A stretch of 64,000 nucleotides of DNA, from the NCBI GenBank assembly GCA_963854735.1, contig OY978101.1, positions 124,001 to 188,000 on the forward strand, in the 5' to 3' direction. The DNA comes from Marvania coccoides (taxonomy: Eukaryota > Chlorophyta > Trebouxiophyceae > Chlorellales > Chlorellaceae). Positions 18,060 to 34,289 of this stretch are shown piece by piece. Below the pieces are notes generated by a model. It did no database searches. It saw nothing but the letters and a program-made list of their open reading frames with translations, and was not told the DNA's origin. The position numbers and the translations under genes are program-made. How positions within the stretch are numbered: the stretch's first letter is position 1; the number at the start of each line of letters is the position of its first letter.

Positions 18060-18850
18060 ATTTTCACATTATTTAAAATACTATTTTACTACTAGTAGTA
18101 CCCGGGTAATAAAATATATAACGCCTTCGTAGTATTATTACCATCAAGCTTGCCCTATATTTTATCAATGCAGGTGTTGCAAGGAGGGTAGGGCGTGCTG
18201 CAAGGGAGGAGGGAGGGAAAGTAGGTAAGTTTACCATGGTGATAGGTAGTACATATACTTAATGCATGCAGCCTGGCTTACTTTTTTTTCTGAAGCCTGG
18301 CCACCAATTCGGCAATGCAAGCCCTGCATAAGCCCTGCATAAGCCTGGGTTTTTTAGCTGTAGGCTTACAATAGGCTTACATATTTTTGGTACGCCTAGG
18401 GTAAGCCTATCCACAAGCCTGCCGTAAGCAATTTCGTAAGCCCTGCATAAGCACCCGCCCATCGCCGCCCCCGTTGGAAGGCTCGTTGGATTTCCCGCTG
18501 GGTCCCCGTTGGGTGGGTTGGGTGGAGCGGGGAATGTTCCTTCGAAACGCAACGAAGCCATCCATCGGGATCCAACGCACAGCTCAATTGTTCAGCTGGG
18601 CCAGAATGCAGCATATTTGTGAGAAAAGAGTTTCTTCGCCGCCCTGTTCTGCGCAACAGATGATCTAAGATTATTTTCTATTTTGCTTCCCAACAGTTTA
18701 GCAAGGTGGTGGTCCTGCCACGCAAAATTGTTAATCCAGAGCACGGCAGGTTATTTTTTGTTTTCCCTCGCCCTCTCTTGCGTCGCACTGAGCAGGGTCA
18801 AGCCCGAATCCAAGCTAAACTTTGCACTTCTAGAGGACACCCAGCGGAAG
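18060..18850. other. Spacer with AAGCC/GGCTT repeat cluster (copy 1)
   Basis: From about 18,270 to 18,455 the motif AAGCCTG/TAAGCC recurs about a dozen times in both orientations, including two direct GCCCTGCATAA units. 18,690-18,770 could contain a small exon (FSKVVVLPRKIVNPEHG, preceded by an AG acceptor and followed by a GT donor) of the gene that follows. The corresponding region of copy 2 is 24,865-25,656. Confidence 0.5.
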
Positions 18851-19534
18851 GAACATCCTGGACCAGCTGCAGCTCTCGCGCCTGGCGGTGGATTGCGTGC
18901 TGGCGTTCAATGTGCGGCTGTTCTGCGCGGGGCCGTGCACCCGCGCCAGCCCTGGCGCCGTGGCTGTGTTCGTGGGGCTACTGCTGCTGGAGGCGCTGGC
19001 GGAACTGTTCAATATGAACACTGGGCAGCGGCTGATGTTCGCATCCTATGGCGACATCGCCAGGATGCTGCCCAGCGGGGTGGTTGGCAGGAAGAGCCCC
19101 CTCTCCCTCCCCCGCGGCCCCCTGGTCAACGTGCCGGGACTGCTCGCTGGCGCTGGGCGGCGGCTGGCGGCGGCGGCGGCAGAGGAGTGCCCACAGCTGC
19201 GGCCTTACTTGGCCTCGGTGCAGGGTCTCCTCACGGAGGCTTCCTTGGCAGGCATCTGGCTGCAGCCCGGCGAGTGCTTCCTGCACCCGTCGCGGTTCTG
19301 CAACGCCCCGCAGGAAGTGGTGGCGGGAACCGCCCGCCTGGTGGATGCGCTGCGGCTGCACGGCCACGACCTGCCGCAGCAGATCGATGCTGCGCTGGCC
19401 GAGGACCTCAAGACAAAGTGGGGGAGGCAGCACGGCGCAGCCAAGGCGCTGGAGGGGCGCTCTGGGGAATTATACGTGGCGGCGCGGAGCGGTGCTCACA
19501 GCAGGAGCGCGGAGCGGCGGCTGGCATACACGCA
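18851..19534 (+). CDS. Hypothetical protein exon, left arm of palindrome, copy 1
   Basis: An AG at 18849-18850 precedes an open, GC-rich frame beginning NILDQLQLSRLAVDCVLAF. It continues with a hydrophobic helix (AVAVFVGLLLLEALAELF), an NTGQRLMFASYGDIARMLPSG block and a basic tail (KWGRQHGAAKALEGRSGELY). Here the frame runs on into antisense of the other arm. In the relative at 34.4 kb it stops right after the equivalent of YTQW (TGGTGA against TGGTGC here), so the natural stop is probably lost. The 5' exons are uncertain. I do not recognise the family. Confidence 0.4.
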
Positions 19535-20173
19535 GTGGTGCGCGGAGAAATACGCACTGGTGTATGCCAGCCGCCGCTTCGCGCTCCTGCTGTGCGCGCC
19601 GCTCCGCGCCGCCACGTACAACTCCCCAGAGCGCCCCTCCAGCGCAGTGGCAGCGCCGTGCTGCCTCTCCCACTTGGTCTTCAGGTCCTCGGCCAGGTCG
19701 GCGTTCATCTGCTGCGGCAGGTCGTGGCCGTGCAGCCGCAGCGCATCCACCAGGCGGGCGGTTCCCGCCACCACTTCCTGCGGGGCGTTGCAGAACCGCG
19801 ACGGGTGCAGGAAGCACTCGCCGGGCTGCAGCCAGATGCCTGCCAAGGAAGCCTCCGTGAGGAGACCCTGCACCGAGGCCAAGTAAGGCCGCAGCTGTGG
19901 GCACTCCTCTGCCGCCGCCGCCGCCAGCCGCCGCCCAGCGCCAGCGAGCAGGCCCAGCACGTTGACCAGGGGGCCGCGCTGGAGGAACGCATGGCTCTTC
20001 CTGTCAACCATCCCACTGGGCAGCATCCTGGCGATGTCGCCGTAGGATGCGAATATCAGCTGCTGCCCAGTGTTCAGGTTGAACAGTTCCGCTAGCGCCT
20101 CCACCAGCAGTAGCCCCACGAGCACAGCCACGGCGCCAGGGCCGGGGTGGGAGCAGGGCCCCGCGCAGAACAG
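18918..20173. repeat. Long palindrome, copy 1 (614-bp arms, 28-bp spacer)
   Basis: Left arm 18918-19531, right arm 19560-20173, spacer 19532-19559. The arms are reverse complements with scattered differences: IDAA against MNAD codons, and different codons before GPLVNV. Transcription through it would give a hairpin RNA of about 1.25 kb. Confidence 0.9.
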
Positions 20174-21129: not shown

Positions 21130-21529
21130 TTACAAGAAGATGCAGCTGACGCTTTTGATGAAGCAGATTGGTCTTCCATCTCGTTGTTCGCTCCACCGTA
21201 TCTCCTCTCGAGGCAGCTCCGCCCCCACCCCGGCTGGCAGCCCCTTTCTGCGAATGAACCTTGCAAATTCTGTGGAACAATGCTCGCGCTTGGCCTGGTG
21301 CGCGGCGGAGTTCCTGCTGATCCCCACATTTGTCATCATCCACAGGTCCATGCGCCGCCGCGGCCGCACGTACTTGGCCACCGGGGTGGTGAGAATGCCG
21401 CCGCCGCCCTGCAGCTTGACTGCCGCCGCCGCTGCAACGTAATTCATCAAAATGTCCTCGCAGTTGAACAGCCGGTCCACCACGCCGCGACCAAACGTCG
21501 CAAACTCGTCCTGCGTGCGCCAGTAGTCC
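21130..21529 (-). pseudogene. Truncated GT64 glycosyltransferase (C-terminal third)
   Basis: Identical, apart from a few changes, to the last about 130 codons of the intact GT64 gene at 27934-29061 (from DYW to the stop). It is cut at the duplication junction and then fused to antisense AFG1 DNA, so it lacks the membrane anchor and the DxD region. It retains FNCEDILMNYVA. Product of the tandem duplication. Confidence 0.9.
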
Positions 21530-21922
21530 ATGCGACTAAGGGACAAGGCGAGGCGGTTCATCACCCTGGTGGATGAGGTGTACAACCAAAGGGGGCGGCT
21601 GGTATGCTCGGCAGCGGTGGAGCTGGACGACCTGTTCACTGGGGTTGGGCCTGAGGCGGGGGAGGAGCCGCTGGTGGACCTGGAGGGGCTGCAATTTGAG
21701 CGGGCAGGGGACGAAGAGGCGGAGCACGCACGGCTGGCGGAGAGGATGGCGGCAGGGGGGCTGGGAGGGGAGGAGGAGCGGTTTGCGTTTGCGCGGGCGG
21801 TGAGCCGGCTGCATGAGATGCAGTGCGACGAGGGAGGGGGAGGGATGTATTGGCGGCTGAGCGAGGCAGCGGCAGAGGCAGTGGCTGGACAGCAGCCAGT
21901 GAAACGAACCTTCCCGCTTTGA
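21530..21922 (+). pseudogene. 3' fragment of AFG1 (duplicate)
   Basis: Repeats the last 130 codons of the 16.0-kb AFG1 gene almost without change, stop codon and 3' flank included. There is no promoter, presequence or Walker motifs. It arose from the tandem duplication and is presumably non-functional, although still open. Confidence 0.92.
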
Positions 21923-22097
21923 TACACGGATACAAACCTGTAGTTTAGTTTCATTTTTTTCAATGAGCAGCTTTTTTTTTTCAGCTGTGCTTGATGATAT
22001 TTTGGTTTTTCATATGCCCACCAAGCACCGAGGATATTAAGTCTCAATCTTATTTTTCAACAAAAATAAAAATTAAAGAGACACCAGGGGGAGGACG

Positions 22098-22928: not shown

Positions 22929-24676
22929 CTAAGAGTTCTCCAGTATTCCCAAATGATCAAATATTTGCTGCAAAATAAAAATGCTGCTCATACCATAAAT
23001 ACCATTGTACCTATGGCATAGTTTGCGAATTGTTGTCATCAACATGCGGCGGGGGAATCCCCTTGCGGTCAAATCCTTCACTACTTTTGCCATTGTCAAA
23101 ACAAAACTCTTTGGGCACATGATTGTAGTACGACAATAATGGAAACGACCAATCAAAATATTTCTCTTGATGCCCAAAGATAATTTAGTGCCATATGCAA
23201 TAAAACGTTTGTTTCGAACATGTTGAAAAGCAGAAGATTCAAATTTATTGAAGAATTTTGTGGTTAAAGGAAACTTTCCATTATTGTGTTTAGGGACTAC
23301 TTGAACATCTAAAAACGTAGAAAGTGGAGTGAGCGGAGATAAAGTTATTTCCAAATCTGGAGGGTAAACTCCTTGAATGCCGAAGAAAGTTTGATTTCTA
23401 TAGAGCAAACGATTGAAAAATCTAGCATTTATGGTGTGAATGTCATCAATGAACCTGAGTAGCCACTGCAAGTGGCGAGTTACGAATAGTGCCAAATTGC
23501 CGATATTGATATTGCGTACAGGATGACTAATGGAGACAGACACATTCTCATCGGGAATATCATTTTCAGTAAGCAGCAAAGTAGGAGAATTTAGAGAAAT
23601 AATATTAGAGAGCTGTTCGTAAAAAGCCATTTCGAAAGTAAACAAAAAATGATTTGCAATTTGGACCGAAGCGTTGCCACCCATGGCGATTCCCTGTATT
23701 TGATGGTATATAATGTCACCAAACATAAAATAATTTTCATCAAGTGTGAACTTAAGAAGCTTGAGAGTGTCCTCCAATGAAAGAATCTTGAAAGTGCCGT
23801 TTCTGCCTGAGCCGCCATCACGCTGAGAAATAGGGGGAAGGTGATTCATCCATTCAGCTGGTGTTATCTTTGAACGAGGGAACACCTTAATTGCTGGTCC
23901 TTTCAAATTGAATAAATCTGTATATAGCGTGGATAGACGGGAAAACAAATCTTGTAAACGTAAATTTGTATATAAACGGCTAACGTCGCCTGTTTGGAGT
24001 AGAACAGGTGTGTTGGAATCGTTTATGCCGTTAACAGCATGAATAATATCGACAAATTGTTGAGTATTTTTCAAAATAGAAGAAAAGCCATGAAATTTGA
24101 GGGAATCAGCGAGGGGATGGCCTGGTGGTAGTTTTGGAAACCGAGATTCTAAAAGAGGAAGCAGATCAGGTTCCAAACCTGTCAAAACTGTGCCTAATAC
24201 TTTAGAAGCATTTGTGGTAATGACATTTGCACATCCAACAATAAATCTAGGAGCCGGCGGAAGTTTGTGTAGTTTGATAAGGCAATAATATCGTCCCAAA
24301 GAAGGCTGTCCTTGTTTCATTCGTAATTGGTCTAATTTAATACCTAGCTGCTGAATGAGTGTATCATGAGAAAGTGAACAAATTTCGAAAACTTCACTAG
24401 CAGCTAAATCCATTTTAATTTTATAAACATAATCATAAATGCACCAAACTGCCAATGAATGGCCTGATTTATCGACTGGAGCAATCACAAAATGTTCATG
24501 GAATTCACGAATGTGAGCTTGATCTGTAGGGGTAAAAGCTAAAGGTTCATGTCCTATCGGAAAATGTTGGGCTGGAACTCCAAAACGTTTTCCTATTGGA
24601 ATATCTAAGTCCAAACGTTGGTGAATGGCATCATCTAAAGCTGCACGGAAAGCTGTCCAACCTAAAATACCAAATG
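22929..24676 (-). CDS. Penelope-like reverse transcriptase, 5'-truncated
   Basis: About 582 codons are open on the minus strand from the element's edge to a stop at 22929-22931; there is no initiating ATG. RT landmarks in order: a YYCLIKLHKLP block (fingers), motif A GDVSRLYTNL, motif B IQGIAMGGNASVQIANHFLF, the catalytic RFIDDI (YxDD-type) and a FLDVQVV block, then a thumb with YGTKLSLGIKRN. The DVxxLYTN and GxAMG..ANxF pairing is typical of Penelope-like elements. I see no GIY-YIG endonuclease after the thumb, so it is an endonuclease-minus type or has lost the domain. It is AT-richer than host genes. Confidence 0.8.
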
Positions 24677-25262: not shown

Positions 25263-25656
25263 GCCCATCGCCGCCCCCGTTGGAAGGCTCGTTGGATTTC
25301 CCGCTGGGTCCCCGTTGGGTGGGTTGGGTGGAGCGGGGAATGTTCCTTCGAAACGCAACGAAGCCATCCATCGGGATCCAACGCACAGCTCAATTGTTCA
25401 GTTGGGCCAGAATGCAGCATATTTGTGAGAAAAGAGTTTCTTCGCCGCCCTGTTCTGCGCAACAGATGATCTAAGATTATTTTCTATTTTGCTTCCCAAC
25501 AGTTTAGCAAGGTGGTGGTCCTGCCACGCAAAATTGTTAATCCAGAGCACGGCAGGTTATTTTTTGTTTTCCCTCGCCCTCTCTTGCGTCGCACTGAGCA
25601 GGGTCCAGCCCGAATCCAAGCTAAACTTTGCACATCTAGAGATCACCCAGCGGAAG

Positions 25657-26340
25657 GAACATCCTGGACCAGCTGCAGCTCTCGCGCCTGGCGGTGGATT
25701 GCGTGCTGGCGTTCAATGTGCGTCTGTTCTGCGCGGGGCCGTGCACCCACGCCAGCCCTGGCGCCGTGGCTGTGTTTGTGGGGTACATGCTGCTGGAGGC
25801 GCTGGCGGAGCTGTTCAATATGAACACTGGGCAGCGGCTGATGTTCGCATCCTGTGGCGACATCGCCAGGATGCTGCCCAGTGGGATGGTTGACAGGAAC
25901 AGCCCCCTCTCCCTCCCCCGCGGCCCCCTGGTCAACGTGCCGGGCCTGCTCGCTGGCGCTGGGCGGCGGCTGGCGGCGGCGGCGGCAGAGGAATGCCCAC
26001 AGCTGCGGCCTTACTTGGCCTCGGTGCAGGGTCTCCTCACGGAGGCTTCCTTGGCCGGCATCTGGCTGCAGCCCGGCGAGTGCTTCCTGCACCCGTCGCG
26101 GTTCTGCAACGCCCCGCAGGAAGTGGTGGCGGGAACCGCCCGCCTGGTGGATGCGCTGCGGCTGCACGGCCACGACCTGCCGCAGCAGATGAACGCCGAC
26201 CTGGCCGAGGACCTCAAGACAAAGTGGGGGAGGCAGCACGGCGCAGCCAAGGCGCTGGAGGGGCGCTCTGGGGAGGTATACGTGGCGGCGCGGAGCGGTG
26301 CTCACAGCAGGAGCGCGGAGCGGCGGCTGGCATACACGCA
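25657..26340 (+). CDS. Hypothetical protein exon, left arm of palindrome, copy 2
   Basis: Counterpart of 18851-19534, beginning NILDQLQLSRLAVDCV after an AG, with the same membrane-type helix (AVAVFVGYMLLEALAELF) and basic tail. It reads SCGD and LPQQMNAD where copy 1 reads SYGD and LPQQIDAA. The frame again runs on past the palindrome centre. The family is unknown, and expression is unproven. Confidence 0.4.
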
Positions 26341-26979
26341 GTGGTGCGCGGAGAAATACGCACTGGTGTATGCCAGCCGCCGCTTCGCGCTCCTGCTGTG
26401 CGCGCCGCTCCGCGCCGCCACGTATACCTCCCCAGAGCGCCCCTCCAGCGCCTTGGCTGCGCCGTGCTGCCTCCCCCACTTTGTCTTGAGGTCCTCGGCC
26501 AGGTCGGCGTTCATCTGCTGCGGCAGGTCGTGGCCGTGCAGCCGCAGCGCATCCACCAGGCGGGCGGTTCCCGCCACCACTTCCTGCGGGGCGTTGCAGA
26601 ACCGCGACGGGTGCAGGAAGCACTCGCCGGGCTGCAGCCAGATGCCGGCCAAGGAAGCCTCCGTGAGGAGACCCTGCACCGAGGCCAAGTAAGGCCGCAG
26701 CTGTGGGCATTCCTCTGCCGCCGCCGCCGCCAGCCGCCGCCCAGCGCCAGCGAGCAGGCCCGGCACGTTGACCAGGGGGCCGCGGGGGAGGGAGAGGGGG
26801 CTGTTCCTGTCAACCATCCCACTGGGCAGCATCCTGGCGATGTCGCCACAGGATGCGAACATCAGCCGCTGCCCAGTGTTCATATTGAACAGCTCCGCCA
26901 GCGCCTCCAGCAGCATGTACCCCACAAACACAGCCACGGCGCCAGGGCTGGCGTGGGTGCACGGCCCCGCGCAGAACAG
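25724..26979. repeat. Long palindrome, copy 2 (614-bp arms, nearly identical)
   Basis: Left arm 25724-26337, spacer 26338-26365, right arm 26366-26979. The arms match each other better than the arms of copy 1 do. Variants such as TGTGGC (Cys-Gly) and the SLPRGPLVNVPG coding block are present in both arms here, whereas copy 1 has a different sequence in each arm. Confidence 0.93.
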
Positions 26980-27261
26980 TCGCCGTAGGATGCGAACGCG
27001 CACAGGTCCCCAGAGCGCCCCTTCAACGCAGCGGCAGCGCCGTGCGGCTTCCCACTTGGCCACCATGACGACGGCCACATTGGCTGCTTCGCGTACAATT
27101 GAAATAGCAAGAAAATGGATGAGGAGGAGCAGAGCGAGAGATCTTTGTGCTCTCTGTGGAGGGAAAAAAATTGATGGGAGTGGAAACCTAAATGGCGATG
27201 CATGCATGGGGAAGCGGATGCTGTGAGCTGGAGAGGGGCTTACCTTGTCAAAGAAATACAT
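26366..27261 (-). pseudogene. Inverted second copy of the hypothetical gene (right arm, copy 2), chimeric 5' end
   Basis: Same structure as 19560-20455: an inverted partial copy from RLFCAGPC onward, fused upstream to a further tail fragment of the family and to a possible short exon beginning MYFFDK. The predicted protein now matches the left-arm protein almost exactly across the arm. Confidence 0.45.
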
Positions 27262-27933: not shown

Positions 27934-29061
27934 TTACAAGAAGATGCAGCTGACGCTTTTGATGAAGCAGATTGGTCTTCCACCTCGTTGTTCGCTCCAC
28001 CGTATCTCCTCTCGAGGCAGCTCCGCCCCCACCCCGGCTGGCAGCCCCTTTCTGCGAATGAACCTTGCAAATTCTGTGGAACAATGCTCGCGCTTGGCCT
28101 GGTGCGCGGCGGAGTTCCTGCTGATCCCCACATTTGTCATCATCCACAGGTCCATGCGCCGCCGCGGCCGCACGTACTTGGCCACCGGGGTGGTGAGAAT
28201 GCCGCCGCCGCCCTGCAGCTTGACTGCCGCCGCCGCTGCAACGTAATTCATCAAAATGTCCTCGCAGTTGAACAGCCGGTCCACCACGCCGCGACCAAAC
28301 GTCGCAAACTCGTCCTGCATGCGCCAGTAGTCCTTCATGAGAGAGGCTCGGTAAAACATGGCCACCGTCAACATGATGTTGTACTCCCCACGTCGGTACG
28401 TCTGCTTCTCCGAGAGGTACCGCATTTCATTGGCCCCCTCAATCAGACGCGGGGAGAAACCCGTGAGGCGCTCCGGCTGGGCCTGCCACTCCACAAACCC
28501 TGCCTCCAAGTCTGAGCAAAACAGCAGCGTGTCATCATCGACGGACAGCACCGCCTCGGTGGTGATCAGCGGGTCGGGCTTAAAGCGGTTGCTCAGAGAG
28601 TCGTACACCTCGCCGCGGAAGCGCACAGGGAGGTTCAGCGGCAGGTCAAGTTGCGCCAGCGAGGGCGGCGATGCGTCCGCCCACACCACCACGATCTCTT
28701 TGAGGGAGGGGCAGCGAGAGTAGTGCGTGAGCACGGTGGACAGGGTGCGGAGCCGCCCAGGGTGGCTGATTAAGACGACGGTGTAGCGAGGGGCATCAGC
28801 TGGAAGCTGCAGCGTTGGAATGGCTTCGTTCATTATTGATTGGTAGTAGTCGTAGGACAGGAAGAAGGGCAGCACGGAAATAGCAACCAGGGCCAGCAGG
28901 CAGGCAGCGACGCAGCGCCGGTTGTGACCAAGGCGAAACCAGTGGCGGCGGAGCGTTTTTCTGATGCGCTCAGAGTTGTAGGACGGCCGTCCCTGGGGCG
29001 CGCCAAAGCCCCAAATGCGGGCAGACCCCTTTGATTTACGCAGAACGGGTTTGCGCTGCAT
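27934..29061 (-). CDS. GT64 (exostosin/EXTL2-like) glycosyltransferase, type II membrane protein
   Basis: A single exon of 375 residues. A basic cytosolic N-terminus precedes one membrane anchor (about residues 49-70, VAACLLALVAISVLPFFL), as in Golgi transferases. The catalytic domain has the GT64 landmarks: YTVVLISHPGR, WADASPPSL, the metal-binding VDDD (174-177), a GFSPR segment and NCEDILMNY (about 265-273) with the catalytic acid region. GT64 enzymes transfer GlcNAc or related sugars in the Golgi; plant members act on glycosphingolipids and wall polymers, so the substrate here is open. The last about 130 codons lie in the duplicated segment and are copied at 21.1 kb. Confidence 0.9.
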   Translation of the reverse strand: MQRKPVLRKSKGSARIWGFGAPQGRPSYNSERIRKTLRRHWFRLGHNRRCVAACLLALVAISVLPFFLSYDYYQSIMNEAIPTLQLPADAPRYTVVLISHPGRLRTLSTVLTHYSRCPSLKEIVVVWADASPPSLAQLDLPLNLPVRFRGEVYDSLSNRFKPDPLITTEAVLSVDDDTLLFCSDLEAGFVEWQAQPERLTGFSPRLIEGANEMRYLSEKQTYRRGEYNIMLTVAMFYRASLMKDYWRMQDEFATFGRGVVDRLFNCEDILMNYVAAAAAVKLQGGGGILTTPVAKYVRPRRRMDLWMMTNVGISRNSAAHQAKREHCSTEFARFIRRKGLPAGVGAELPREEIRWSEQRGGRPICFIKSVSCIFL

Positions 29062-30596
29062 TGGTTGTTTGATTGGCTGCTAGGTAGGGTGGGTGGGTGG
29101 GGGTGGGGGTCAATGGGGCATTAAGAGCTGGTCCCTCTTTTTAAATCATGATCGCCAGTATTCTGCTGACTGCGGCGAGATGCTGGAAAGAGAGATGAGC
29201 GCGGTTCCGTTCGAGTGCGATGTGATTTTTGAGTTGGCGTTTATAAAAAGACTGCGCTGGTGATGTATGTGTATTTTAATTATTTCATAAATTTGAATTT
29301 AGCATTCTGGACTGGCTAAGTAGCGTTTGAGATAAGAGAGGGGAATAAATATTATAATTTTCAACGAAATGGGAACAAGCGAACATTGTGGAATTCGTTT
29401 ATGTTGCAAAGCAAATAATAATTTCAAAAAATGTATTTAGTAGCTGTGCTCTCACACAGACGCAGAGCATCACAGTTTCCATCAAGAAATATTTTAAATA
29501 TTTTAAAAATCCCGTCTGCAGACAGCTGTCCCGTAATTTCCCGTCTCGTCTTGCAGGCCCGATTTGACGATACGGCGCAGAGCAGGAAGAAATTTCGGCG
29601 GTAAAGGAGGGCTTTAGGTTGGCAAAAGCACCTTGAAGTTCACTTGAAAGCCACTAGGAAGAGAGTGGCACAATGGCGGTAGGCTCCTGACTTAATTGTT
29701 AGGATCAAGCTTGCCCCTCCACTGTGTGGCCTTTGTTGCCGTCTCTGTGCGGAGTCTAAACACTCAAATTTGTATTTATTTTTGTGGCGACGCTGAATTG
29801 GCCAGTGAACAATTACCCCTGCCGCAATATGTTTTTATTTTTTGAACGCTGGTCAGAAACTCTGGGATTCAATCCACCTTCGGCTTCGAGGAAGGTGCAC
29901 ACTGGAGCACGAGCCGACCTCGACAGCCCGGGTTTAAAATTTCACAAGTCTCCAGTCTTTGATTGTAGGCTAAAACATGGCTACCCTTCAACAAAAAATA
30001 ACCAGAAACCCAATCTCAGATTGAATCTGCAGCTTGTGCGGGGACTCTGGTGACTTTACCAAGCTATAAACTTAGCTTATGCTGCTCATGAAGAGGAGCC
30101 TTTTTATGTGGCCGTAAAAGTTTTTTTGTTCATTGGTGATATAATTTTAATAATCGGAATTTACTCTGAGGGTGTGTTGGCCTGAAATGCGAACAACAAT
30201 AAACCGGTGAAAGATCATCACATTTTGATGGCTCAACAAATATTCACGCCAGCTGCCCATATCAATGACTGCTTTTAGCATAGACCTCGTGGATTGCTAT
30301 TCAGTGTGTAAAAGCGACGACAAATGCAACATTCCCAGGCTCATGCAAAGGAAGAAAGCACATATTTTTTTTCGGCGCGCACCTAATTTTCGGCCAAACA
30401 TTATCGTGCAGGGCAAATAAGAGCGATCGTGCGTTGTTGGAAATATATTGATGGTTTACTGCGTGGATTGAAGCTCTTTCGATCGTATATTTTGACGTTG
30501 CGCCATCGTGGTGAAATTTTAGTGCACTTTTGTGATCTGGTGGCTCATGTCGCCACGCTTTCGTGTGTAGAGGCACATTTTCTCGCACTTCAGCGC
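29062..30596. other. Gene-poor spacer upstream of the tRNA gene
   Basis: About 1.5 kb of AT-rich DNA. No exon with host coding composition was found. An 89-residue plus-strand frame at 29784-30053 is not convincing. TATA-like stretches at about 30,440 and 30,486 precede the permuted tRNA gene by about 110-155 bp. Confidence 0.5.
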
Positions 30597-30720
30597 ATCT
30601 GTAGGTCACCGGTTCGAACCCGGTAGGAGGAGTATATTGATAATGTAAGGGTCTGGTGAGATCTGATCCTCACCCCCGCCGTGTCCTCCTTAGCTCAGCT
30701 GGCAGAGCGCCAGACTGTTA
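30597..30720 (+). tRNA. Circularly permuted tRNA-Asn(GTT): 3' half precedes 5' half
   Basis: The 3' half is 30597-30632: A38, TCTGT, AGGTC, T-arm ACCGG-TTCGAAC-CCGGT, acceptor AGGAGGA and discriminator G. A 51-nt intervening sequence follows (30633-30683). The 5' half is 30684-30720: acceptor TCCTCCT, TA, D-arm GCTC-AGCTGGCA-GAGC, G, CCAGA, CTGTTA. Reordered 5'-3', they form a 73-nt cloverleaf with perfect acceptor (7 bp), D (4 bp) and T (5 bp) stems; the anticodon stem has one C-T mismatch at its base. The anticodon is GTT. The break lies at 37/38 in the anticodon loop. No matching 5' acceptor half exists upstream of the first piece, nor a 3' half downstream of the second. B box and A box are present in reversed order. 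Permuted tRNAs are known from red algae, prasinophytes and a nucleomorph. Confidence 0.9.
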
Positions 30721-30724
30721 TTCA

Positions 30725-30729
30725 TTTTT
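30725..30729 (+). terminator. Pol III-type T-run after the permuted tRNA
   Basis: Five T residues start 5 nt after the last base of the 5' half, as expected for RNA polymerase III termination of the permuted precursor. Confidence 0.6.
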
Positions 30730-31387
30730 GCACCTCTGGGGACATCCCCAGGCTGCGGGGAACGTTTTGGCAAAGTTTGAACTCAAGATGTTCAATGTTG
30801 CAGATGTTCGGCAAATACTCGGCGCTGCAGCCTTCCCGCTCTTCCCAATACATTTATTATGGTGTGAATGATCAATGGCAATGCAGCGCTGTTGAAAACG
30901 GCGTGTTCAAAGCCCATTTGGAGCGATTTTCGACGCCCGGAAATTCTTGGGCACTTTCTTCCCAGTAGGTCACTGCCACCCCACAGGGCGATTTCCAGTG
31001 GCTATGCCCACTGAACTTAGTGCGCACCACATATATGTTAACGCGTGTACGAGACGCATGCCGGTTAATCTCAAGCATAAAACAAGCGTGCCGAACTAAT
31101 CACAATCCTCGATGTCGATGTTTGTCTTTATTGTCGGCCATAAATGGCCCTCATAATTGCGCACAAAATTCACATATTGCTGATTTTATTTGATTCTGCT
31201 TCCCGCTTTCCTTGGCTTCGCCCATAAGTTTACTCTCAAAGTTTGTTTTGAAATCGTCATCGCGACTGCAGCTTGAAGGCAGCAAATTGATGCGTAGTTC
31301 ACACTTTAAAACAACGTCTTGTTCAGTGTAGCTGAACAGCGTAACTAAACGAAACAATGTTTAGTGTTTTTTTCATACGCGTTACGG
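30730..31387. other. Intergenic spacer
   Basis: Holds a perfect 7-bp-stem hairpin at 30736-30751 (CTGGGGA-CA-TCCCCAG). No exon is supported. Confidence 0.5.
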
Positions 31388-31565
31388 TCTCTAGAGTTTG
31401 AGTTTCTGGTTGTGCCATTTGGCCTCACTAACGCTCCCGCAACGTTCATGAGGTTGATGAATGCAGTTTTAAAGGATTTGATCGATGATTGTGTCCTGGT
31501 TTAGATGACATTCTAATCTTTTCCAAACTGATGTTGAACACGCCGCACACCTTGAGAAACTCAGT
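31388..31565 (+). mobile_element. Ty3/gypsy reverse-transcriptase relic
   Basis: Reads [20 protein letters not shown], then [12 protein letters not shown], then after a frame break LDDILIFSK and a trace of the following helix. This is the palm region of Ty3/gypsy RT with the catalytic YLDD damaged by the break. Nothing else of the element (LTRs, integrase, protease) is seen. It is old and not functional. Confidence 0.85.
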
Positions 31566-32990: not shown

Positions 32991-33223
32991 GAAGGATTTT
33001 CACGCTGCTGCCCTCCTGCGAGCCTCACAATAATTTTTGTGTCCAACGTAAGCCCGTGTCGCAGCCCACGGCAGCCGCTCCCTCGTGCATGCACCCCCAT
33101 TTTGAGGGAGGGCTGAGATCTTTTATTTTTTTCAGTTTGCATAGAGAGCTAACGCCTCGTCGCTGCTCCTCCCTCTTTCCATCCACACTCGTTCTGCAGG
33201 TTCCGGCCCATCGCATCACGAAG

Positions 33224-33497
33224 ATGCCAACTTACCACTTCAGCTTGCTGGCGTCCAACGTGCCCAGCTCGAGTCCACTTCTGGACCAGTTGGAGGCGCT
33301 TGGACGCGGCGGCGCCTACACCCCGCCCCCCACCGACCGAGATGCCATCGTCGGCCGGGGCGCTCGCAACAAGAGCGCCTCAGACGCCCTGGTAGAAGGC
33401 GCAGCGGACAAGGCGGTGCTGCTGCTGGGCCACGTAACGCACCACCTGCGTGACCTGCAGGCCGCCGGCACCTCCCCCCATCAACTCAAGTCTGTGG
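33224..33497 (+). pseudogene. Inverted 5' fragment of the MPTYHF-type gene (left arm)
   Basis: Contains the first 91 codons (ATG 33224) and then meets the loop in antisense, so the frame continues into unrelated sequence. It is a partial duplicate of the right-hand gene. Confidence 0.75.
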
Positions 33498-33550: not shown

Positions 33551-33916
33551 CGCCTCAAACATGCTGCACTTGGTGAGCACAGTCACGACGCCGCCCCCCA
33601 TGACCTGCGTCCACAGGTCCTGGATGGCCGCCAGCTGCCCCGCCACAGACTTGAGTTGATGGGGGGAGGTGCCGGCGGCCTGCAGGTCACGCAGGTGGTG
33701 CGTTACGTGGCCCAGCAGCAGCACCGCCTTGTCCGCTGCGCCTTCTACCAGGGCGTCTGAGGCGCTCTTGTTGCGAGCGCCCCGGCCGACGATGGCATCT
33801 CGGTCGGTGGGGGGCGGGGTGTAGGCGCCGCCGCGTCCAAGCGCCTCCAACTGGTCCAGAAGTGGACTCGAGCTGGGCACGTTGGACGCCAGCAAGCTGA
33901 AGTGGTAAGTTGGCAT
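33551..33916 (-). CDS. Hypothetical MPTYHF-type protein, first coding exon; rest missing
   Basis: ATG 33916 opens 122 codons ending at a good donor (GTGAGT from 33550). The first 91 lie in the right arm and the last about 31 (AGQLAAIQDLWTQVMGGG through TKCSMFEA) in the loop, so this is the parental copy. Features: a Ser/Pro-rich start, SPLLDQLEALGRGGAY, ARNKSASDALVEGAADKAVL and a His/Leu-rich amphipathic helix. A leader intron may precede the ATG (donor GTAAGC, acceptor TGCAG). Any following exon has been displaced by the inverted left arm. The family is unknown. A diverged relative lies at 53.8-54.2 kb. Confidence 0.45.
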
Positions 33917-34289
33917 CTTCGTGATGCGATGGGCCGGAACCTGCAGAACGAGTGTGGATGGAAAGAGGGAGGAGCAGCGACGAGGCGTTAGCTCTCTATG
34001 CAAACTGAAAAAAATAAAAGATCTCAGCCCTCCCTCAAAATGGGGGTGCATGCACGAGGGAGCGGCTGCCGTGGGCTGCGACGCGGGCTTACGTTGGACA
34101 CAAAAATTATTGTGAGGCTCGCAGGAGGGCAGCAGCGTGAAAATCCTTCCCAAGACGCTGATAAAAAAAAAGCTGGCAAGAAAATCATTGGATTTGTCCA
34201 TGGGGAAGGAAATGACAATGGAATGGGGGAAAAGTGCCATAAAGATTGGCGTTTGTCAAGCGCACATAATGCATCGAGCCCTCCCGCGC

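Follow-up and report, generated by a model that had tools for sequence, protein, structure and literature searches.

The locus at positions 30597-30720 of the 64-kb stretch of DNA that was analysed (hereafter, the window) is, in all probability, a functional type II (37/38) circularly permuted nuclear tRNA-Asn(GUU) gene of a green alga and the only nuclear tRNA-Asn gene that we found. At the sequence level, this reading is supported by the reversed order of the two tRNA halves, the cloverleaf that they form when joined, the T-run that follows the 5' half and the presence of sister genes of like build in the same genome. A nuclear permuted tRNA-Asn(GTT) gene had been proposed here in the first-pass annotation; it is still the best reading, now strengthened by the sister genes and by several searches that yielded no other nuclear tRNA-Asn.

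Structure and detection of the permuted gene

The complete 3' half lies 51 nt upstream of the complete 5' half, exactly to the base as annotated previously (Table 1). Joined in silico, the two halves yield a class I tRNA-Asn(GUU) cloverleaf with 20 of the 21 stem pairs formed (acceptor stem 7/7, D stem 4/4, T stem 5/5, anticodon stem 4/5). The acceptor strands, which had been described as perfectly complementary in the reversed order, indeed form all 7 pairs next to the discriminator G73, and the annotated break between positions 37 and 38 agrees with both the sequence and the covariance-model alignment. The joined molecule keeps U8, R15-Y48, G18G19, U33, A37, T54T55C56 and G73, as assessed with the checklist of conserved positions for permuted tRNAs in section 4 of PMC3978253; CCA is absent from the gene sequence. 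The sole failing stem pair is C27-U43, an unpaired position in the anticodon stem that was not mentioned in the first-pass annotation.

Table 1. Positions of the parts of the tRNA-Asn gene and of other features discussed in the text (window coordinates unless a contig is named)
Feature	Position	Strand	Basis and remarks
Leader adjoining position 38	30585..30596	+	Weak partner of anticodon-loop bases 32-34; poor relaxed bulge-helix-bulge
tRNA-Asn(GTT) 3' half, positions 38-73	30597..30632	+	Sequence ATCTGTAGGTCACCGGTTCGAACCCGGTAGGAGGAG; R2 match 30597-30720; anticodon 3' strand, variable loop, T-arm with B box, acceptor 3' strand, G73
Linker between G73 and position 1, 51 nt	30633..30683	+	Sequence
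tRNA-Asn(GTT) 5' half, positions 1-37	30684..30720	+	Sequence TCCTCCTTAGCTCAGCTGGCAGAGCGCCAGACTGTTA; R2; acceptor 5' strand, D-arm with A box, anticodon 5' strand, GTT, A37
T-run TTTTTGC, Pol III-type terminator	30725..30731	+	Starts 4 nt past the 5' half
Permuted tRNA-Ala(CGC), L064	C6:847103-847287		Sister gene
First pair of related stretches	18683-20095 / 25643-27261		Shared ORF sequence
Second pair of related stretches	21130-22047 / 27934-29061		Shared ORF sequence
ORF	22929-24614	-	Resembles a Penelope-like reverse transcriptase by eye
ORF	~31385-31490	+	Resembles a Ty3/gypsy reverse transcriptase fragment by eye
Inverted repeat, 358 nt	33140-33497 / 33643-34000		Perfect; arms 145 nt apart

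Neither ARAGORN nor Rfam at the gathering threshold detected a colinear tRNA in the window; a sub-threshold Rfam match at 30684-30762 (15.9 bits) was rejected as a tRNA, being the 5' half plus the stretch downstream of it. A covariance model of permuted tRNAs (R1) gave the locus 70.3 bits. As the training set of R1 included the tRNA-Asn gene itself, a second model (R2) was built from 15 other tRNAs of the same genome, with this gene left out. The first-pass annotation had called for a permuted-tRNA search, and R2 recovered the locus as its sole match in the window, with a score of 64.1 bits (E ~1e-18 on 64 kb, the E-values of the tool being rough) and no further matches up to E = 10. Furthermore, in a rule-based scan of both strands for the permuted anatomy, this locus was the single hit in the real window, and 120 simulated first-order Markov windows yielded no hit.

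A high R2 score is, by itself, no proof of permutation, because pairs of neighbouring colinear tRNA genes score equally high. Applied to a control set of 754 kb in 100 loci (15 organelle-contig stretches, 77 bacterial-record loci and 8 viral contigs), R2 produced 396 matches at E up to 1, the best of which, at 72.7 bits, outscores the tRNA-Asn gene; all 25 of the control matches that were checked, mostly the highest-scoring ones, span two neighbouring colinear tRNA genes. Given that such tandem pairs mimic the permuted order, the distinguishing criterion is the absence of outer halves. At the tRNA-Asn locus, the outer halves are missing: the window holds no colinear tRNA, and a BLAST search of the genome with the joined sequence returns only the two halves of this locus. 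Folding energy is evidence neither for nor against, because unconstrained folds of the region are no more stable than those of shuffled sequences (z ~ -0.8).

The nuclear tRNA set and the sister permuted genes

The window belongs to contig C5 of a 22,462,713-bp assembly in 15 contigs, two of which are organelle-like: C14 (49,038 nt) and C15 (99,873 nt, carrying rbcL). ARAGORN identified 27 tRNAs on each of these, including one colinear tRNA-Asn apiece. Both the rbcL sequence and a nuclear AFG1-type ATPase agree with a place in the green lineage; among named organisms, the nearest relatives of the nuclear protein are from green algae (apparently Picochlorum, and Parachlorella, Apatococcus and Chlorella) with 42-50% identity, whereas environmental proteins reach up to 57%. 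Genome-wide, 454 first-look candidates were obtained, 63 of them were scored and 61 matched the Rfam tRNA model, with only nine of the 61 falling on the 13 nuclear contigs. These nine colinear tRNAs are Gly-TCC, Gln-CTG, Met, Glu-TTC, Lys-CTT, Cys-GCA, Asp-GTC, Val-TAC and Thr-AGT; for the nuclear Lys, Cys and Thr genes, ARAGORN required an intron.

The T-arm motif GGTTCRANYCC occurs at 132 places in the genome, and among the 100 listed, 86 are on nuclear contigs. Seven of the 86 were previously accounted for by the tRNA-Asn gene and six colinear tRNAs, and 26 of the remaining 79 were inspected. Because the inspected places were picked by motif letters (16 + 10), the counts that follow do not represent a genome rate. 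A 7/7 acceptor partner is found downstream in 11 of the 26, whereas the other 15 reach 5 or 6 pairs; among these 15, the T-stem is perfect in seven and broken in eight. In the ten shorter stretches, a distant acceptor partner could fall past the end of the stretch.

Eight of the 11 are strong with R2 (30.2-60.6 bits): Phe-GAA (L068), Thr-CGT (L060), Ala-CGC (L064), Arg-CCG (L070), Arg-TCG (L065), Thr-TGT (L062), Glu-CTC (L063) and Ser-GCT (L057, assigned by inspection). In seven of the eight, both anticodon strands are readable and form 5/5 pairs across the 37/38 break; in L057, the anticodon 3' strand is partly outside the stretch examined. The other three, L073 (Leu-CAG by inspection, 26.3 bits), L061 (23.2 bits) and L071 (Arg-TCT, 16.5 bits), all fall short of the 28.3 bits that R2 gives to the top-scoring colinear gene (L055) and are weaker permuted candidates, suggested by acceptor pairing and inspection. 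The label Ser(CGA) for L061 failed a check and was withdrawn. With the tRNA-Asn gene, the inspected 26 of the 79 T-arm places thus bring the permuted total to nine strong genes and up to 12 candidates. R2 models 37/38 breaks exclusively, and the sister set covers that break type.

The sister genes are flanked by none of the nine colinear tRNAs and by no other T-arm place from the list. Upstream of them, the sequence was covered for up to ~44 nt, so that an outer half there would be possible. The anticodons of the permuted genes (GAA, CGT, CGC, CCG, TCG, TGT and CTC, GCT and CAG by inspection, and TCT) show no overlap with those of the nine colinear tRNAs.

The first-pass annotation had also suggested a search for a colinear tRNA-Asn elsewhere in the genome. 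This search was limited, extending to pattern-conforming T-arms and, among these, to the 26 of 79 places above, and it recovered organelle copies only. The colinear motif GGCTGTTAACC is present at five places in the genome, namely, the two organelle tRNA-Asn genes and three nuclear places, none of which lies beside any of the listed T-arm places. By exact motifs, two candidates with G73 (L075 and L076) have no adjoining Asn anticodon arm with a matching stem, and an approximate plant tRNA-Asn query matched only the mitochondrial gene in the genome. The permuted gene in the window is therefore the only nuclear tRNA-Asn found in a search that was not exhaustive and leaves room for another among the other 53 of the 79 T-arm places and among off-motif T-arms. 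For both Asn and Phe, the only nuclear genes found are permuted, and for this reason it is plausible that the cell cannot translate without circularisation.

A run of at least four T, starting 2-6 nt past the 5' half, follows 10 of the 12 permuted genes, including all nine strong ones (tRNA-Asn among them), against a background in the window of 9.4% of 20-nt stretches with TTTT. Such a run is not seen at L061 or at L073, where just 11 nt could be read. More specifically, TTTTGC follows the 5' half in six of the 12, tRNA-Asn included, compared to 0.6% of 20-nt stretches, and it is also found no more than 25 nt downstream of four of the nine colinear nuclear tRNAs (e.g. L047, L051, L052 and L055); it may be a terminator that Pol III favours in this alga. 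No TATA-like box was seen within 50 nt upstream of the tRNA-Asn gene, whereas, according to PMC3978253, such boxes are present at most 50 bp upstream of most of the permuted genes of Cyanidioschyzon merolae; in the same account, the box is usual in that alga but not defining, with an ambiguous AT-rich region in some green-algal genes.

Two of the loci have additional tRNA pieces nearby. The permuted Ala(CGC) gene is followed by a second, 65-nt copy, 97% identical, that holds the 5' half and the T-run; section 10 of PMC3978253 presents an extra 5' half at the Ostreococcus lucimarinus tRNA-Cys gene as a plausible intermediate stage. On contig C8, ~5 kb from the intron-bearing tRNA-Lys gene, L080 and the end of L049 contain another 3' half of tRNA-Lys(CTT), whose 5' part seems to be damaged and which may be a decaying copy in inverted orientation.

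The bacterial-like body and alternative explanations

The body of the tRNA had been noted to look more bacterial than eukaryotic, and the comparison bears this out. It shares 64 of 73 positions, including all 14 acceptor bases, with a Vibrio tRNA-Asn, the best among the matches listed, as opposed to 48 of 73 for the plastid and 47 of 73 for the mitochondrial Asn gene; the 64/73 is a selected maximum because a pattern covering positions 1-40 had been used to choose the bacterial set. In unselected BLAST searches of phage and plasmid collections, the best full-length matches listed are 78-84% identical. The body also carries the bacterial-type U1-A72 pair, which PMC9023262 describes as frequent in bacterial Asn tRNAs, the metazoan tRNAs without G1 in its survey being only those for Asp, Glu, Tyr and Met. 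An organelle origin of the tRNA-Asn was rejected on the identity values. One explanation, albeit a doubtful one, would be that a bacterial-type tRNA-Asn, gained by horizontal transfer or shaped by strong convergence, replaced the eukaryotic one in reading the cytosolic Asn codons and has no gene other than the permuted one; if true, this tRNA could be made only via a circle.

The same resemblance, i.e. the 64/73 match within the preselected set and the 78-84% identity of the best listed full-length phage and plasmid matches, could be taken to indicate that a piece of organelle or bacterial DNA carrying a tRNA-Asn was inserted into the nucleus, scrambled and silent. However, the two organelle Asn genes are far from the body in sequence, at 48 and 47 of 73, a blastn search of the phage collection with the surrounding 201 nt produced no match, and the locus is on a eukaryotic contig and has sister genes of like build, all of which makes such an insert highly unlikely. 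A rearranged, unexpressed pseudogene, the relic of a tandem tRNA-Asn pair that lost its outer halves, accounts for the inner order and the high permuted score, both of which neighbouring colinear pairs share; the C27-U43 mismatch points in the same direction, and duplication followed by loss is one of the proposed origins of permuted genes (section 10 of PMC3978253). Considering that the cloverleaf is otherwise intact, that the break is exactly at 37/38 with the T-run in place, that eight strong and three weaker loci are built alike and that the nuclear searches found no replacement tRNA-Asn, we regard a relic as improbable.

That each half is a gene with its own transcript, the two being joined in trans as a split tRNA, has a probability close to nil: we found no specific support for this arrangement, a run of four T is lacking between the halves and present directly past the 5' half, and the 51-nt spacing is inside the 1-74 bp range of intervening sequences reported for permuted genes (PMC3978253).

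Processing and relation to known permuted tRNAs

If the locus is a functional permuted gene, RNA polymerase III would produce a single transcript comprising the leader, the 3' half, the 51-nt linker, the 5' half and a short U-rich trailer. The tRNA-splicing endonuclease would then cut past A37 and ahead of A38, and a ligase would join 37 to 38 into a circular RNA. RNase P and tRNase Z may then open this circle at the acceptor end by excising the linker, and CCA addition and charging with asparagine would follow. This scheme parallels the algal pathway in section 6 of PMC3978253, where the junction is cut, most likely by the splicing endonuclease, and ligated into a circle, and the linker is possibly removed by RNase P and tRNase Z. 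The genome contains two places with matches to the PF01974 endonuclease domain and encodes an RtcB ligase as three neighbouring pieces.

The bulge-helix-bulge predicted in the first-pass annotation is weak. Bases 32-34 can pair with leader positions -4 to -6, producing a 3-bp helix with a 4-nt bulge, but 27% of 2000 shuffled leaders equal this helix, and a constrained fold of the junction reveals no clear bulge-helix-bulge. Among the seven genes whose leaders could be used, tRNA-Asn included, the junction helix is 1-5 bp long and the shuffle fractions are 0.04-0.79. For the junctions of green-algal permuted genes, PMC3978253 reports an hBH motif.

By 2014, 34 permuted tRNA genes had been recorded, from six algae and one archaeon (PMC3978253); two permuted tRNA-Ser genes were found later in the Amorphochlora nucleomorph (PMC4494063), and permuted tRNAs of Auxenochlorella were reported in 2025 (PMC12636532). 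A permuted Ostreococcus tauri Asn(GTT) gene (Maruyama 2010, in Table 1 of PMC3978253) is, like the one described here, a nuclear gene of a green alga with a 37/38 break and no intron; its linker is 22 bp compared to 51 nt here, and the likeness concerns these listed features. The present tRNA-Asn gene thus joins a known class. In C. merolae, 11 of 43 tRNA genes are permuted and, as here, they complete the colinear set and have a downstream T-stretch, with linkers of 7-74 nt that bracket the present 51; the breaks in that alga are at several positions, whereas here only 37/38 was sought (PMC3978253). Likewise in a green alga, Auxenochlorella UTEX 250-A, with a 22-Mb genome, the tRNA set is incomplete until the permuted genes are counted (section 7 of PMC12636532); its plastid and mitochondrial genomes are 84.6 kb and 54.0 kb, respectively, versus 99.9 and 49.0 kb here, which sets the two algae apart.

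What is new is a further green alga rich in permuted tRNA genes, which appears to be a good system for studying the origin of such genes (e.g. Ala-CGC with its second 5' half), as well as transcription with the A and B boxes swapped and the junction structure that the splicing enzymes need.

Near the tRNA-Asn gene, the window contains two pairs of related stretches (Table 1): two blocks have near-identical ORFs on both strands, and two ORFs have a common C-terminal part, which appears to reflect segmental duplications. Two further ORFs look by eye like reverse transcriptase genes, one resembling the Penelope-like type and the other a Ty3/gypsy fragment. Farther downstream, open frames on both strands overlap the perfect inverted repeat.
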